Below, in pieces: positions 27,998 to 33,643 of a stretch of DNA of 64,000 bases. Both the position numbers and the translations under genes were made by a program. The DNA is from Alphaproteobacteria bacterium SO-S41 (lineage in GTDB: Bacteria > Pseudomonadota > Alphaproteobacteria > Micropepsales > Micropepsaceae). Numbering within the stretch: position 1 is the first letter of the stretch; the number at the start of each line of letters is the position of its first letter. The notes under the pieces are model-generated. The model was not told the DNA's origin. It did not search any database and saw only the letters and a program-made list of their open reading frames with translations. The stretch covers positions 2,728,001-2,792,000 of the forward strand of contig AP024629.1 of NCBI GenBank assembly GCA_019670725.1, read 5' to 3'.

Positions 27998-28993
27998 ATG
28001 GCCTTCGTCTCCGACAGCCAGGCGGTGGTGATCGGGCTCAACGCAGCGATCGTCGCCATGCTGAACGGAGACCCGCATGTGCTCGCCGTGCGGCATGTCA
28101 TTCCCGATCCCGCCAAGGGCGTTCGCCCGGAACGCGACGGCCTGCCCTTCGGCCCCTTCGAACCGCTCGGCCACCGCACGCTGGAGGCCGGCGTGCGGAG
28201 CTGGGTGAAGGGCCAGACCGGCTTCGACATGGGCTATGCCGAGCAGCTCTACACCTTCGGGGATCGCGGGCGGCACGAGGTGAAATCCGGCGAAGGACCG
28301 CGCGTCGTTTCGGTCGGCTATCTCGCGCTCGTGCGCGCGCAAGGCGCACCGCCGGTGCCGGATTCCGCGTGGCGCGACTGGTACGGCTATTTCCCCTGGG
28401 AAGACTGGCGCGCCGCCAAGCCTGCGATGATCGACGAGGTCATCCTGCCCCGCCTCAAGGCATGGGCGGCGGCAGGCGGCACGCGTGACACCCGCTGGGA
28501 TCGCGCCCGGCTCTGCTTCGGTTTCGATGGCCTGCACTGGGACGAGGAAAAGACGCTGGAGCGCTACGAGCTGCTCTACGAGACCGGCCTGGTCGCCGAG
28601 GCGCGGCAGGACGGGCGCGCCTTCCCGGAGACCCGGACCGCGCCGATCGAGCTCGGCTTGCCCATGATCTTCGACCACCGGCGCATTCTCGCGACGGCGA
28701 TCGGGCGGCTGCGCGGCAAGCTGAAATACCGTCCCGTCGTGTTCGAGCTGATGCCGCCGGACTTCACGCTCCTGGAGCTGCAGCGCACGGTGGAGGCGAT
28801 CTCGGGCGCGCAGGTCCACAAGCAGAATTTCCGGCGGCTGGTCGAAACCTCCGGCCTGGTCGAAGGCACCGGTCGCATGTCCGCGCCGGCGAAAGGCCGG
28901 CCGGCGGAGAAGTTCAGGTTCCGGCGCGAGGTGCTGCGCGAGCGGCCGGCGCCGGGGGTGAAACTCGCGGTCTCGCGGGGGAGCAAGAAATGA
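27998..28993 (+). CDS. nrtR: NrtR-type transcriptional regulator of NAD synthesis (NUDIX-related)
   Basis: 331 residues. The N-terminal ~200 residues have a NUDIX-like fold (AVVIGLNAAIVAMLNGDPHVLAVRH, GPFEPLGHRTLEAGVRSWVKGQTGFDMGYAEQLYTFGD) in which the catalytic REUxEE residues are absent, as in NrtR proteins that only bind ADP-ribose or related ligands. The C-terminal ~100 residues (YRPVVFELMPPDFTLLELQRTVEAISGAQVHKQNFRRLVETSGLVEGTG...GRPAEKFRFRRE) are the winged-helix DNA-binding part. nadABC lies two genes downstream with two matching palindromes in its leader, so it most likely represses nad genes. ATG overlaps 2 bp after the phosphatase stop. Confidence 0.85.
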   Translation: MAFVSDSQAVVIGLNAAIVAMLNGDPHVLAVRHVIPDPAKGVRPERDGLPFGPFEPLGHRTLEAGVRSWVKGQTGFDMGYAEQLYTFGDRGRHEVKSGEGPRVVSVGYLALVRAQGAPPVPDSAWRDWYGYFPWEDWRAAKPAMIDEVILPRLKAWAAAGGTRDTRWDRARLCFGFDGLHWDEEKTLERYELLYETGLVAEARQDGRAFPETRTAPIELGLPMIFDHRRILATAIGRLRGKLKYRPVVFELMPPDFTLLELQRTVEAISGAQVHKQNFRRLVETSGLVEGTGRMSAPAKGRPAEKFRFRREVLRERPAPGVKLAVSRGSKK

Positions 28994-29949
28994 TGCAGTT
29001 CATTCGAGCGATCGGCCTCGGTCTTCTCGTGGCCCTTACTTTTTCAGAGGCACGCGCCTTGGACCTGGTTTCCTGGCAGGAGCAGGACGTCACAATCGGC
29101 AAGGGCGACGATGCACTGCACGGCACCTTCCTCGCGCCGGATGCTATGGACAGCTATGTCGCCGTGCTGTTCCTCTCCGGATCCGGCCCGACCGACCGCA
29201 ACGGCAATCAGCCGGGCATGGAGAACAATTCGCTGAAGATGCTGGCGGAAGCGCTGGGCTATGCGGGCATTGCGAGCATCCGCGTCGACAAGCGCGGCGT
29301 CGCCGCCAGCGCGAAGGCGGGCCCGAAGGAAGAGGACCTGCGCTTCGAGACATATATCGACGACGCCAAGGCGTGGCTCGCCTTCCTGAAGGCGCAGCCG
29401 CTTGTGCGACAGGTGTGGGTGCTCGGCCATTCCGAAGGCGCGCTCATCGGTTCCATCGTGGCGCAATCGAAGGATGTGGCCGGCTTCATCAGCCTCGCCG
29501 GCGCGGGCGAGAAGGCGGCGGATGTGCTGCGCCGCCAGCTCGCCGAAAACCCGCTCGCGCTCGCCATGGCTGAGCCGACGCTGAAGAAGCTGGAGGCCGG
29601 CGAACTCGATCCCGACGCCAACCCGGCGCTCGGCGCCCTCTTCCGGCCCAGCGTGCAGCCTTATCTGATCTCGTGGTTCAAATATGATCCGGCCGCCGAG
29701 ATCGCCAAGGTGCCCGGCAAAGTCGCGATCATCCAGGGCTCGCACGACATCCAGGTCCTGGTGCTGGATGCCGAAAAGCTGCACGCCGCCCGCCCCGATG
29801 CGGCCTACACGCTGATCGAGGGCATGAACCACATTCTCAAGATCGCGCCCGCCGATCGCGCCGGAAATGTCGCGACTTATAACGACCCGACGCTGCACCT
29901 TGCAGGCGGCCTGAGCGAGGCTGTCGCCCTCGCCATTTTCACCCCTTGA
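28990..29949 (+). CDS. Alpha/beta hydrolase with signal peptide
   Basis: 319 residues. An N-terminal signal peptide (QFIRAIGLGLLVALTFSEARA) is followed by an alpha/beta-hydrolase core: FLSGSGPTDRNGNQPG oxyanion region, VDKRGVAAS, and nucleophile elbow G-H-S148-E-G. The late IIQGSHDIQV and EGMNHILK segments supply the acid and His. It resembles periplasmic serine hydrolases of unknown substrate. It overlaps nrtR as ATGA, and its stop codon overlaps the -35 hexamer of the nadA promoter. Confidence 0.87.
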   Translation: MMQFIRAIGLGLLVALTFSEARALDLVSWQEQDVTIGKGDDALHGTFLAPDAMDSYVAVLFLSGSGPTDRNGNQPGMENNSLKMLAEALGYAGIASIRVDKRGVAASAKAGPKEEDLRFETYIDDAKAWLAFLKAQPLVRQVWVLGHSEGALIGSIVAQSKDVAGFISLAGAGEKAADVLRRQLAENPLALAMAEPTLKKLEAGELDPDANPALGALFRPSVQPYLISWFKYDPAAEIAKVPGKVAIIQGSHDIQVLVLDAEKLHAARPDAAYTLIEGMNHILKIAPADRAGNVATYNDPTLHLAGGLSEAVALAIFTP

Positions 29950-29973
29950 CGTTATACTCAGATCTAGCATAAT
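29946..29973 (+). promoter_or_regulatory. Likely sigma-70-type promoter of nadABC
   Basis: TTGACG (29946-29951) and CATAAT (29968-29973), 16 bp apart, are close to the TTGACA/TATAAT consensus. The -35 overlaps the stop codon of the upstream hydrolase. The spacer is occupied by the first putative NrtR operator, an ideal position for repression. Confidence 0.6.
29952..29972. promoter_or_regulatory. Putative NrtR operator 1
   Basis: Imperfect palindrome TTATACTC..AGATC..TAGCATAA (21 bp). It shares the pattern TATrCTCA-3-TC-kAGyATA with operator 2, and the single within-arm mismatch (A versus C at mirrored places) occurs at the same position in both sites. It fills the spacer of the nad promoter. 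Confidence 0.55.
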
Positions 29974-30014
29974 TCGCTTAAGGCGGCATTGAACCGCCGT
30001 TCTTTGGGTCCCAT

Positions 30015-30035
30015 ATATGCTCACGTCGAGTATAT
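30015..30035. promoter_or_regulatory. Putative NrtR operator 2
   Basis: ATATGCTC..ACGTC..GAGTATAT, 21 bp, centred 63 bp downstream of operator 1, six helical turns, so both face the same side of the helix. It ends one base before the Shine-Dalgarno sequence of nadA. Binding here together with operator 1 could loop or block transcription. Confidence 0.55.
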
Positions 30036-30046
30036 CGGAGGAAGCG

Positions 30047-31072
30047 ATGAGCGAGACACTGGAATTCACGGCTGACGTCGAAAAGGAAACCGCCCCGCTC
30101 TATGAGCGCGTGAAGTCGGTCATTCCGGAATTCGAGTGGCGGATGCACGCGCCCTACATCGCCGCGATCAATCGCCTGAAGAAGGAAAAGGGCGCGGTCA
30201 TTCTGGCGCACAATTACCAGACGCCCGAAATCTTCCACTGCGTTTCGGACTTCGCCGGCGACTCGTTGCAGCTTGCGCGCGAGGCGGCGAAGACGGATGC
30301 GCAGATCATCGTGCAGGCCGGCGTGCACTTCATGGCCGAGACGTCGAAGATCCTGAGCCCGGACAAGACGGTGCTGATCCCCGACATGCAGGCCGGCTGC
30401 TCGCTGGCCTCGTCGATCACCGGCGCGGATGTGCGCCTGCTGCGCGAGCGATTTCCCGGCGTGCCGATCGTCACCTATGTGAACACCTCGGCCGAGGTGA
30501 AGGCCGAGAGCGATATCTGCTGCACCTCGTCCAACGCGGTCGATGTGGTGGAGTCGCTGGGCGTCGATCGGGTCTTCATGATCCCCGATCAATATCTCGC
30601 CAAGAACGTCGCCAAGCAGACCAAGGTCGAGATCCTGACCTGGGCGGGCTCGTGCGAGGTGCACGAGCGCTTCACCGCCGACGACATCCGCGCCTTCCGC
30701 AAGTCGCATCCGGGCGTCGTCGTGCTGGCCCATCCCGAATGCCCGCCGGAAGTCGTCGAGGAAGCCGACTTCGCAGGCTCGACGAGCGCGATGATCGGCT
30801 ATGTCGAGGACAAGCGGCCGAAGCGCGTCGTCATGGTGACGGAGTGCTCGATGAGCGACAACGTCGCGGCGTCGCTGCCGGATGTCGATTTCGTGCGGCC
30901 CTGCAATCTCTGCCCGCACATGAAGCGCATTACGCTGCCCAAGATCCTGCACTCCCTGCAGACCATGACGCACGAGGTCCATGTCGACCCCGTGATCGCA
31001 GTCCGCGCGCGGCAGGCGGTTGAGAATATGCTGAAGGTCGGTTCGCCCAAGGCGCGAGCCCTGGCGGCGTAA
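30047..31072 (+). CDS. nadA: Quinolinate synthase NadA
   Basis: [4Fe-4S] enzyme that condenses iminoaspartate with dihydroxyacetone phosphate to quinolinate. The 341 residues include [26 protein letters not shown], the cluster cysteines in [23 protein letters not shown] and [12 protein letters not shown], and [16 protein letters not shown]. The start at 30047 is fixed by GGAGG 5-6 bp upstream; a longer frame from 30017 would run through operator 2. First gene of nadABC. Confidence 0.96.
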
Positions 31073-31084
31073 AGGACGGCTCTC

Positions 31085-32656
31085 ATGAGCGATTATAAAG
31101 TGATCGATGCGGGGCCTGCCCTCGTCGTCGGCGCCGGGCTGGCCGGGTTGTTCGCCGCGCTGAAGTTCAAGGTGCGGCCGGTGACGATCCTCGCCGGCTC
31201 GCCGATCGGCTCCAACGCCTCCTCGGCCTGGGCGCAGGGCGGCATCGCCGCCGCGATGGGCGACGACGACAGCCCGGCGCTGCATGTCGCAGACACCATC
31301 GTCGCCGGCGCGGGCATCGTCGATGAGGCCATCGCCAGACTGGTGACGGAAGAAGCCGCGGCACGGATCGAGGATCTCGTCCAGATGGGCGCGCCGTTCG
31401 ATCGCGACGCTCAGGGCCGCCTCGTGCTCGGCCGTGAGGCCGCGCATGGCCGCAAGCGCATCGTGCGCGTGAAGGGCGACCAGGCAGGCGCCGCGATCAT
31501 GGCGACGCTGGCCGCCGCCGTGCGGGCCAAGGACGACATCCGCGTCATCGACGGTCTGCGCGCCACCGGGCTCATCATGATCGACGGAAGGGCGCGTGGC
31601 GTCTGGACCCGCGATGCGGCGGGCAAGCGGGTGGCGGTGGTGGCCGATGCGATCCTGTTCGCGCTCGGCGGTTCGGGCGGGCTCTTCTCCGTCACCACCA
31701 ATCCGGTGACGGCGCGCGGCGTCGGCATCGCGATGGCGGCACGGGCCGGCGCGGTGATCGCCGATCCTGAGTTCGTGCAGTTCCATCCGACCGCGCTCGA
31801 TGTCGGCCGCGATCCTGCACCTCTCGCGACGGAAGCGCTGCGTGGCGAAGGCGCGACGTTGATCAACGACGCCGGCATCCGCTTCATGCTGGGCGCGCAT
31901 CCCGATGCCGAACTGGCGCCGCGGGACATCGTGGCACGCGGCATCTTCCGCGAGATCAAGGCGGGACGCCGTACCTTCCTGGATGCGACCAAGGCGGTGG
32001 GCGATGCCTTCCCGGAGCGTTTCCCGACCGTCTATGCGAGCTGCATCGCCGCCGGCATCGATCCGCGCATCCAGCCGATCCCGGTCGCCCCTGCCGCGCA
32101 CTACCACATGGGCGGCATTGCCTCCGATGAACATGGCCGTTCCGCCATTCCCGGGCTCTGGGTCGCAGGTGAATGCGCCGGCACAGGTCTGCACGGTGCG
32201 AACCGACTGGCCTCCAACTCGCTGCTGGAAGCGATCGTTTTCGGCGCTCGCACGGCGGCCGATATCGACGCGACGCCGCAGGGTGTGCGCCGCTTCGATC
32301 TGCCCGAAGCTCCAGTAGGCGACGCTGCTGAAGATGCCCGGGCGATGGCGCTGCTGCGCCACACGATGACCGCCAATGTCGGCGTCGAGCGCGACGCCGC
32401 TTCGCTAACCGCAGCGCTCGCCGACATCATGGCGCTCCGTCTGGCCGACCACGGCGAGACGGTAAGTGCCGCCGCCGATACGGCGCTGCTGATCGCCGCT
32501 GCTGCCTGGACGCGCCAGGAAAGTCGGGGCGGTCACTTCCGCAGCGATTTCCCCGAAGCCTCCGACGACTGGAAGCGGCGCACCATGACGACGCTGAACG
32601 CCGCCGAAGTCATCGCCGCCGAGGCGTTGCTCGGCTCGGTCGATCGGGCGGCGTGA
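31085..32656 (+). CDS. nadB: L-aspartate oxidase NadB
   Basis: FAD enzyme that oxidises L-aspartate to iminoaspartate for NadA. It has 523 residues. The FAD motif [16 protein letters not shown] opens it, followed by [29 protein letters not shown], the substrate loop [29 protein letters not shown], and [44 protein letters not shown]. It begins 12 bp after nadA with AGGA upstream. A palindromic repeat separates it from nadC. Confidence 0.96.
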
Positions 32657-32676: not shown

Positions 32677-32748
32677 TGTCATGCCCGCGCAGGCGGGCAT
32701 CCATCTTCCAAGCGCTGCATCTGGATGCCCGCCTCCGCGGGCATGACA
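32677..32748. repeat. Palindromic intercistronic element between nadB and nadC
   Basis: TGTCATGCCCGC (32677-32688) and GCGGGCATGACA (32737-32748) are a perfect 12-bp pair enclosing two further GC-rich hairpins (GCCCGCGCAGGCGGGC and GCCCGCCTCCGCGGGC). It lies in the middle of an apparently single operon, so it might affect mRNA stability or partial termination between nadB and nadC. Confidence 0.75.
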
Positions 32749-32788: not shown

Positions 32789-33643
32789 ATGATCCCCCTG
32801 CCCGATCTGATGATCGAACCTGCCGTGCGCGCGGCGCTGGCCGAGGACCTCGGCCGCGCCGGCGACATCACGACGGACTCCATCATTCCCGCCGACGCCC
32901 GCGCCCGCGTGACCATCGGCGCGCGCAAGCCGGGCCGCGTATCTGGCTTGGCCTTTGCGCGTCTCGCATTCCACGCGCTTGATGGCGAAGCAGCCTTCAC
33001 GGTGCAGATCCCTGACGGTGCGGATGCGGCGCCCGGCCAGGTGATCGCAACCATCGAGGCGCGGACGCGGGCGCTGCTGTCTGCCGAACGCGTGGCGTTG
33101 AATTTCGCGGGGCGGCTGTCGGGCGTCGCGACGCTGACCGCCGCCTATGTCCAACGCATCAAGGGCACCAAGGCGACCATCGTCGATACCCGCAAGACGA
33201 CGCCGGGCTGGCGGGCGTTCGAGAAATACGCCGTGCGCTGCGGCGGCGGTTCGAACCATCGCTTCGGCCTCGATGACGCCGTGCTGATCAAGGACAATCA
33301 TGTCGCCGCGGCGGGCGGCGTCGCCGAAGCGATCGGCCGGGCGCGCGCCCATGCCGGACACATGGTCAAGATCGAGGTCGAGGTCGATAAGCTGGCGCAG
33401 CTCCACGAGGCGCTGGCGGCGAAGGCGGATATCGTCCTGCTCGACAACATGACGCCCGCGTTGCTGCGCGAGGCTGTCGGCATCACCGCCGGCCGCTCCA
33501 TTCTGGAAGCCTCAGGCGGCGTGAACCTCGACACCGTGCGGGCGATCGCCGAGAGCGGCGTGGACCTCATCTCGGTGGGCGCGCTGACCCACAGTGCGAC
33601 GGTGCTGGATATCGGGCTCGACTATGTGGCGGATCGGAATTGA
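32789..33643 (+). CDS. nadC: Carboxylating nicotinate-nucleotide diphosphorylase NadC
   Basis: Converts quinolinate and PRPP to nicotinate mononucleotide, completing de novo NAD entry. Its 284 residues are normal. Seen: [93 protein letters not shown]-type strand and [36 protein letters not shown] lies upstream of the start. Third gene of nadABC, separated from nadB by a 132-bp gap holding a palindrome. Confidence 0.97.

Follow-up and report, generated by a model that had tools for sequence, protein, structure and literature searches.

Transcription of nadA-nadB-nadC in the window (the whole 64,000-nt stretch of DNA analysed here) is probably controlled by the regulator NadQ at two operators, that is, by promoter occlusion at an upstream site (O1) and by an elongation block at a downstream site (O2) that may be coupled to a predicted terminator in the nadA leader; we put the probability of this reading at roughly 0.8. 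O1 (TTATACTCAGATCTAGCATAA, 29952-29972, + strand) is a predicted NadQ operator situated on the spacer and the -10 element of the nadA promoter. O2 (ATATGCTCACGTCGAGTATAT, 30015-30035, + strand) is likewise predicted to be bound by NadQ and lies within the predicted nadA leader. NadQ operators ahead of nad genes belong to a known kind. Beyond the operators themselves, leaders from at least 12 of the 36 outside families sampled feature a hairpin and T-run at a near-constant distance 5' of the downstream operator.

Regulator identity and operator motif at the nad locus

The locus comprises, all on the + strand, nadQ (27998..28993), coding for a transcriptional regulator of 331 amino acids; a gene (28990..29949) for an alpha/beta hydrolase that is weakly EstD-like (EstD model 90.8 bits, cut-off 600); nadA (30047..31072, start ATG at 30047) for quinolinate synthase (PF02445, 6.9e-114; TIGR00550 above cut-off); nadB (31085..32656) for L-aspartate oxidase (NF005701, 697.5 bits, cut-off 528); and nadC (32789..33643) for quinolinate phosphoribosyltransferase (TIGR00078, 325.8 bits, cut-off 198.4). 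In this order of genes, nadQ is linked to nadABC in the genome. The hydrolase gene sits between nadQ and nadA, with its stop codon inside the -35 element of nadA. Between nadB and nadC (32677-32748) lies a REP-like inverted repeat with 27-nt arms, 96% complementary and 18 nt apart. At three mismatches or fewer, the genome contains the 27-nt unit 58 times in forward and 62 times in reverse orientation (0 and 0 for the reversed control), and inspection of the places listed shows the units often arranged as facing pairs, with starts 38-54 bp apart.

An initial annotation, made from the sequence alone, had called the gene two genes upstream of nadA that of NrtR, and the palindromes likely NrtR operators. 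A regulator gene is present at that place, and the palindromes do look like operators of a NAD-synthesis regulator, but the regulator is NadQ by sequence and by fold, and not NrtR. The C terminus of the protein matches NrtR_WHD (PF21906, 9.4e-19), and the Pfam search returned no match for a Nudix domain. The best solved relative is NadQ of A. tumefaciens (7q91, E 3.2e-87, residues 43-327 of 331); remote sequence matches of the C-terminal part are to AraR (1.9e-11) and Shewanella NrtR (2.5e-8). In a fold search with an AlphaFold model built from the window regulator and 13 relatives (pLDDT 81), ranks 1-14 were all taken by NadQ chains (TM 0.72-0.80, query-normalised), AraR came after them, and NrtR appeared first at rank 20 (3gz5). 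The N-terminal domain appears to be Nudix-like, given the match (1.6e-6) between the model and the Nudix domain of NrtR 3gz8. Judged by these sequence and model comparisons, the window regulator is NadQ (COG4111), which is only distantly related to NrtR.

That O1 and O2 are nonetheless NrtR operators responding to ADP-ribose is hardly credible. The DNA-binding domain does belong to the NrtR type (PF21906) and the two regulators share a fold, as the NrtR structure at rank 20 illustrates, but the protein matches NadQ far better, in sequence as well as fold, the score of 60.2 bits against the NCBIfam NrtR model NF050029 does not reach its cut-off of 400, and the operator motif is the one published for NadQ. 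The replacement of a plausible but wrong name has a practical consequence, for it changes the effectors to test. PDB titles list crystal structures of A. tumefaciens NadQ in complex with ATP, NAD or DNA, and the title of J Struct Biol 214:107917 presents NadQ as Nudix-like and ATP-responsive. Because A. tumefaciens NadQ was crystallised with both ligands, ATP and NAD, rather than ADP-ribose, are the first candidate effectors; by analogy, the window NadQ probably responds to the level of ATP and/or NAD.

PMC5343134 describes the NadQ regulon (COG4111) in alpha-, beta- and some gammaproteobacteria, with motif and regulon content (67 is among the site/gene figures of its table, which covers 30 genomes), and gives the NadQ operator consensus as ttATRCTCannntGAGYATaa. 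Both palindromes pointed out earlier are there in the sequence, with a centre-to-centre distance of 63 bp (6.0 turns), and both fit the published consensus ahead of nad genes. The genome search for the 21-bp pattern, as proposed in the initial annotation, was done with TTATRCTCN5GAGYATAA at three or fewer mismatches and scanned 4.44 Mb. It found four places, of which O1 and O2 are the sole ones at two or fewer mismatches and the top two genome-wide; the other two, considered as possible further regulon members and both at three mismatches, are fewer than the 12 forward matches of the reversed control pattern at the same threshold. The core pattern ATRCTCN5GAGYAT (12 bases scored) has four matches in the window at two or fewer mismatches for 4.85 expected, a count that is itself not above chance, and the only matches with 0 or 1 mismatch are O2 (0) and O1 (1). 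No site with two or fewer mismatches that would point to nadQ autoregulation was found near nadQ in the window search. The two palindromes had also been described as sharing a mismatch at the same mirrored position, which is correct for positions 5/17, where the consensus has R/Y, whereas O1 is asymmetric at 8/14 (C/T) as well. Because the motif is the published NadQ motif and the regulator is NadQ, the assignment of O1 and O2 as predicted NadQ operators is well supported by the sequence criteria tested.

Operator conservation and the nadA promoter

Conservation was analysed in samples from the window's own family and from the wider class, in both of which phylogenetic independence was only roughly controlled. 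The search covered 96 family genomes, of which 87 yielded NadA and 89 NadQ; all 60 genomes of good quality have both. The 87 family nadA leaders are the window's own plus 86 fetched, with two from one genome (G059) and with another (G013) left out, whose nadA lacks its 5' end on the contig. O2 is present in every one of the 87 leaders and matches all 12 scored bases in 86, so that the comparison of nadA leaders in relatives suggested at the outset came out in favour of a conserved operator. O1 is found 55-80 bp 5' of O2 in 82/87 leaders at two or fewer mismatches, and in 86/87 at three or fewer, some of the pairings then being weak. One leader from the genus of the window (L036, genome G014) has kept O2 and is without a good O1 or a hairpin, as if the two had been lost together. 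In the window genome O2 folds well as RNA (2/200 shuffles as good). The idea that O2 acts mainly as an RNA hairpin 5' of the ribosome-binding site was nevertheless rejected, because 16/86 family O2 sites have A/C at positions 5/17, a combination that cannot pair in RNA and that fits the R/Y rule of the operator.

In the class sample of 241 genomes, NadQ was found in 68 and NadA in 102. With four members of the window's family set aside, all 62 leaders from genomes having both proteins were fetched, and 18 from the 36 having NadA without NadQ. A site with at most one mismatch is present in 61/62 leaders of the former group, 49 of them perfect, and in 0/18 of the latter, where not even a two-mismatch site was found in any of the 18 leaders, five of which belong to more distant NadA (39-46% identity). 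Mononucleotide-shuffled leaders gave a site in 4/1600 cases. Among the named NadQ loci, which as the best 80 of 586 relatives lean to close relatives, nadA was found in 59 and the site in 59/59, with 19 of these leaders repeating those of other samples. The presence of the site follows the presence of nadQ, and this conclusion is well supported.

The arrangement of sites outside the family is of more than one kind. Wide pairs are spaced 55-71 bp (search range 50-80). In a second layout, seen in 15/62 leaders outside the family (L167, L170, L176, L178, L180, L183, L184, L188, L190, L191, L192, L194, L199, L202, L221), two NadQ sites are 22-29 bp apart, without a hairpin. Three Parvibaculum leaders (L243, L245, L248) have TAG-type NadQ sites with one mismatch 97-99 bp 5' of O2, and on inspection a longer hairpin-like stretch between the two sites.

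Spacing bears directly on the idea of looping, in which NadQ dimers on O1 and O2 would touch across six helical turns and the hairpin would be irrelevant. The 63 bp of the window amount to 6.0 turns, and the spacing seen most often among family leaders is 63-64 bp (45/86). The full range, however, is 60-74 bp in the family and 55-71 bp outside it, over one full turn of the helix, and in the three Parvibaculum loci the one-mismatch site is as far as 97-99 bp from O2; looping is improbable on this evidence. Strict helical phasing of O1 and O2 was rejected on account of a spacing that spans more than one turn, and the earlier observation of centres six turns apart is accurate for the window genome but not conserved.

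O1 overlaps the likely nadA promoter. A promoter scan gave the -35 element TTGACG (29946..29951, + strand) and, after a 16-nt spacer, the -10 element CATAAT (29968..29973, + strand), the best-scoring of three promoter-like matches in 19 kb, for which 2.3 are expected by chance. As had been noticed in the initial annotation, the spacer of this pair is occupied by O1, which in addition overlaps 5/6 bases of CATAAT. Relatives too have a TTGAC-like -35: it lies ahead of 80/82 family O1 sites (chance about 361/4350), and in 74/82 the spacer between it and the right half of O1 measures 16-18 nt. In 71/82 family O1 sites the right half has T in place of the consensus G (GAGCAT to TAGCAT), and it is this T that starts the right half in 68/74 sites with the 16-18-nt spacer versus 3/8 of the others. 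O2, without a known promoter, keeps the G in 86/86 family leaders. By inspection, 13/19 wide-spaced O1 sites outside the family have the same T.

These sequence patterns suggest that the O1 right half (TAGCAT) likely doubles as the -10 element in most family members. That O1 keeps one fixed imperfection while O2 is perfect would then be due, in the simplest reading, to the right half of O1 being a -10 that needs the T. The window is an exception, with a -35 three bases closer than in most of the family; its spacer to TAGCAT is only 13 nt, so CATAAT must serve as the -10. The family O1 sites clearly exemplify an operator whose bases also belong to a likely -10, with the compromise base visible.

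The hairpin between the operators

A GC-rich hairpin in the predicted nadA leader (GGCGG-CATTGAA-CCGCC, 29982..29998, + strand), conserved in relatives, is followed after the stem by the T-rich run GTTCTTT (29999..30005, + strand), which is weak in the window genome and often longer in relatives. O2 begins 16 nt 3' of the stem and ends 1 nt 5' of the ribosome-binding site of nadA (GGAGGA, 30037..30042, + strand, by inspection), in keeping with its earlier description as lying just before that site. Alone, the window hairpin is not significant: terminator-like matches number 11 versus 9.4 expected, and 78/200 shuffles fold at least as well. Rfam returned two weak matches, far under thresholds, and a known RNA family was rejected for the hairpin.

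Comparison across relatives provides the evidence for the hairpin. With a strict rule requiring a GC-rich stem and a T-run and permitting no G-U pairs, it was found in 73/87 family leaders (127/4350 dinucleotide shuffles), in 15/61 class leaders outside the family (53/3050) and in 23/40 further named leaders from the best 80 of 586 (40/2000). Outside the family overall, 38/101 leaders have the hairpin and 63/101 fail the strict rule; shuffles overall gave 1.7-2.9%. The stem ends 13-18 nt 5' of O2 in all 111 hairpins, 94 of them at 16 or 17, and a hairpin at the 13-18 nt position occurred in 39/9400 shuffles. The 15 hairpins of the class sample come from 12/36 family labels. Stems vary by lineage (CCGGC, GGCGG, CCAGC, CCCGA, GCGGA, GACGGGC and others), and from these differing letters it follows that pairing and place are kept, not the letters. 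A GC-rich stem with a T-run, a predicted intrinsic terminator, is conserved through sequence change across relatives.

The partner to which the hairpin is held appears to be O2. The O1-to-hairpin spacing is variable (5-19 nt within the family, mostly 7-10). Under a looser rule that allowed G-U pairs, the class sample has the hairpin in 14/19 wide pairs, 7/27 single sites and 0/15 close pairs, and the named loci (best 80 of 586) have it in 25/34 wide pairs and 16/25 single sites. The zero for close pairs is to some extent inevitable, as the hairpin's place is taken by the upstream site; a search 5' of that upstream site also gave 0/15. Since the hairpin occurs with single sites as well, it goes with O2 and not with the O1-O2 pair.

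Could the hairpin be the terminator of the upstream gene, having nothing to do with NadQ? A same-strand gene, for the hydrolase or nadQ, does end just 5' of it in the window and in many relatives. The hairpin is kept, however, at 7 loci where the upstream gene is divergent and Pfam-confirmed as that of an MFS transporter or a zinc-type dehydrogenase (7/10 upstream neighbours checked by Pfam gave a match; L310 is without a hairpin under the G-U rule, which makes the count 7/7 or 6/7). By a crude frame test, 9/13 loci with an opposite-strand frame only keep it, L243, L266, L273 and L285 being those without, and its position is fixed relative to O2 throughout. Retention next to divergent neighbours led us to judge this explanation unlikely.

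A second promoter at the hairpin would use the TTGAA of the loop as -35, with O2 placed over its -10. In its favour is a TTG that lies 27 nt (59 leaders) or 26 nt (8 leaders) 5' of O2 in the majority of the 87 family leaders. On inspection, however, leaders outside the family keep the hairpin but not the letters of its loop, and no good -10 was seen at 16-18 nt. With the loop TTG thus restricted, the second promoter is judged unlikely, and indeed quite improbable.

Proposed control of nadA and relation to known systems

From the position of O1 we propose that a NadQ dimer bound there would cover the -35/-10 spacer and the -10, shutting RNA polymerase out. The nadA start is placed, with less certainty, just after O1 (about 29980), so that hairpin and T-run would form the beginning of the RNA. 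A further NadQ dimer, bound at O2, would confront the leading edge of the polymerase at the moment when the active site is close to the T-run, the geometry of this roadblock being based on general values for the dimensions of polymerase. NadQ on O2 would thus serve as a roadblock holding polymerase at the putative leader terminator, and so as a further lock on any transcript that gets past O1. The coupling of hairpin and O2 suggested by their sequence arrangement could go either way in sign: a polymerase stopped at O2 might stall short of the release point, and the roadblock might hinder release.

The strongest rival to this mechanism is that the hairpin serves solely to protect the nadA mRNA at its 5' end, O2 being a plain second roadblock. 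The predicted start at about 29980 would put the stem at +3 in the window, and family stems begin 5-19 nt after O1, mostly 7-10, hence near the predicted 5' end. Protection of the end would not call for a T-run or for a constant distance to O2, however, and that constancy holds in each of the three samples; we regard this alternative as possible but doubtful. Within the proposed coupling of hairpin and O2, a tentative suggestion, held with somewhat more conviction than end protection and still on the unlikely side, is operator-gated attenuation, in which NadQ at O2 would decide whether polymerase passes the terminator in the first ~30 nt of the nadA transcript. The near-fixed stem-operator distance of 16-17 nt would be the working part of such a device, and O1 would be a separate initiation lock.

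If true, a DNA-binding repressor would act via a leader terminator at a set spacing. The recurrence of the hairpin ahead of the operator raises the testable question whether a classical repressor can control termination as well as initiation. No such control mode was met in the literature searched, which held nothing relevant on a nadA leader terminator or a roadblock-terminator pair; that the hairpin-operator module is not described there is a weak negative, as the main NadQ paper and RegPrecise lay outside that search.

The window shares with the NadQ regulon, as laid out in the available part of PMC5343134, the regulator family, the operator consensus, the targets nadABC and the location of nadQ near nadABC; that part of the account makes no mention of the O1/hairpin/O2 layout, some of which may be covered in J Struct Biol 214:107917, of 2022. 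With Shewanella NrtR (3gz5/3gz6) there is a likeness in the related winged-helix and Nudix-like fold and in the control of NAD genes. Unlike NrtR, the window protein of 331 amino acids belongs to a different orthologous family and is without a Nudix match in Pfam. In leader attenuation, the leader of a biosynthetic operon contains a terminator-like hairpin, and the same is seen ahead of nadA; the difference is that no antiterminator partner was seen in the nadA leader and that the conserved partner of its hairpin is a DNA operator. In roadblocks by repressors of the CodY type, an operator 3' of the start site can block elongation. The window leader differs from these in having, at a near-fixed distance 5' of such an operator, a terminator-like hairpin.
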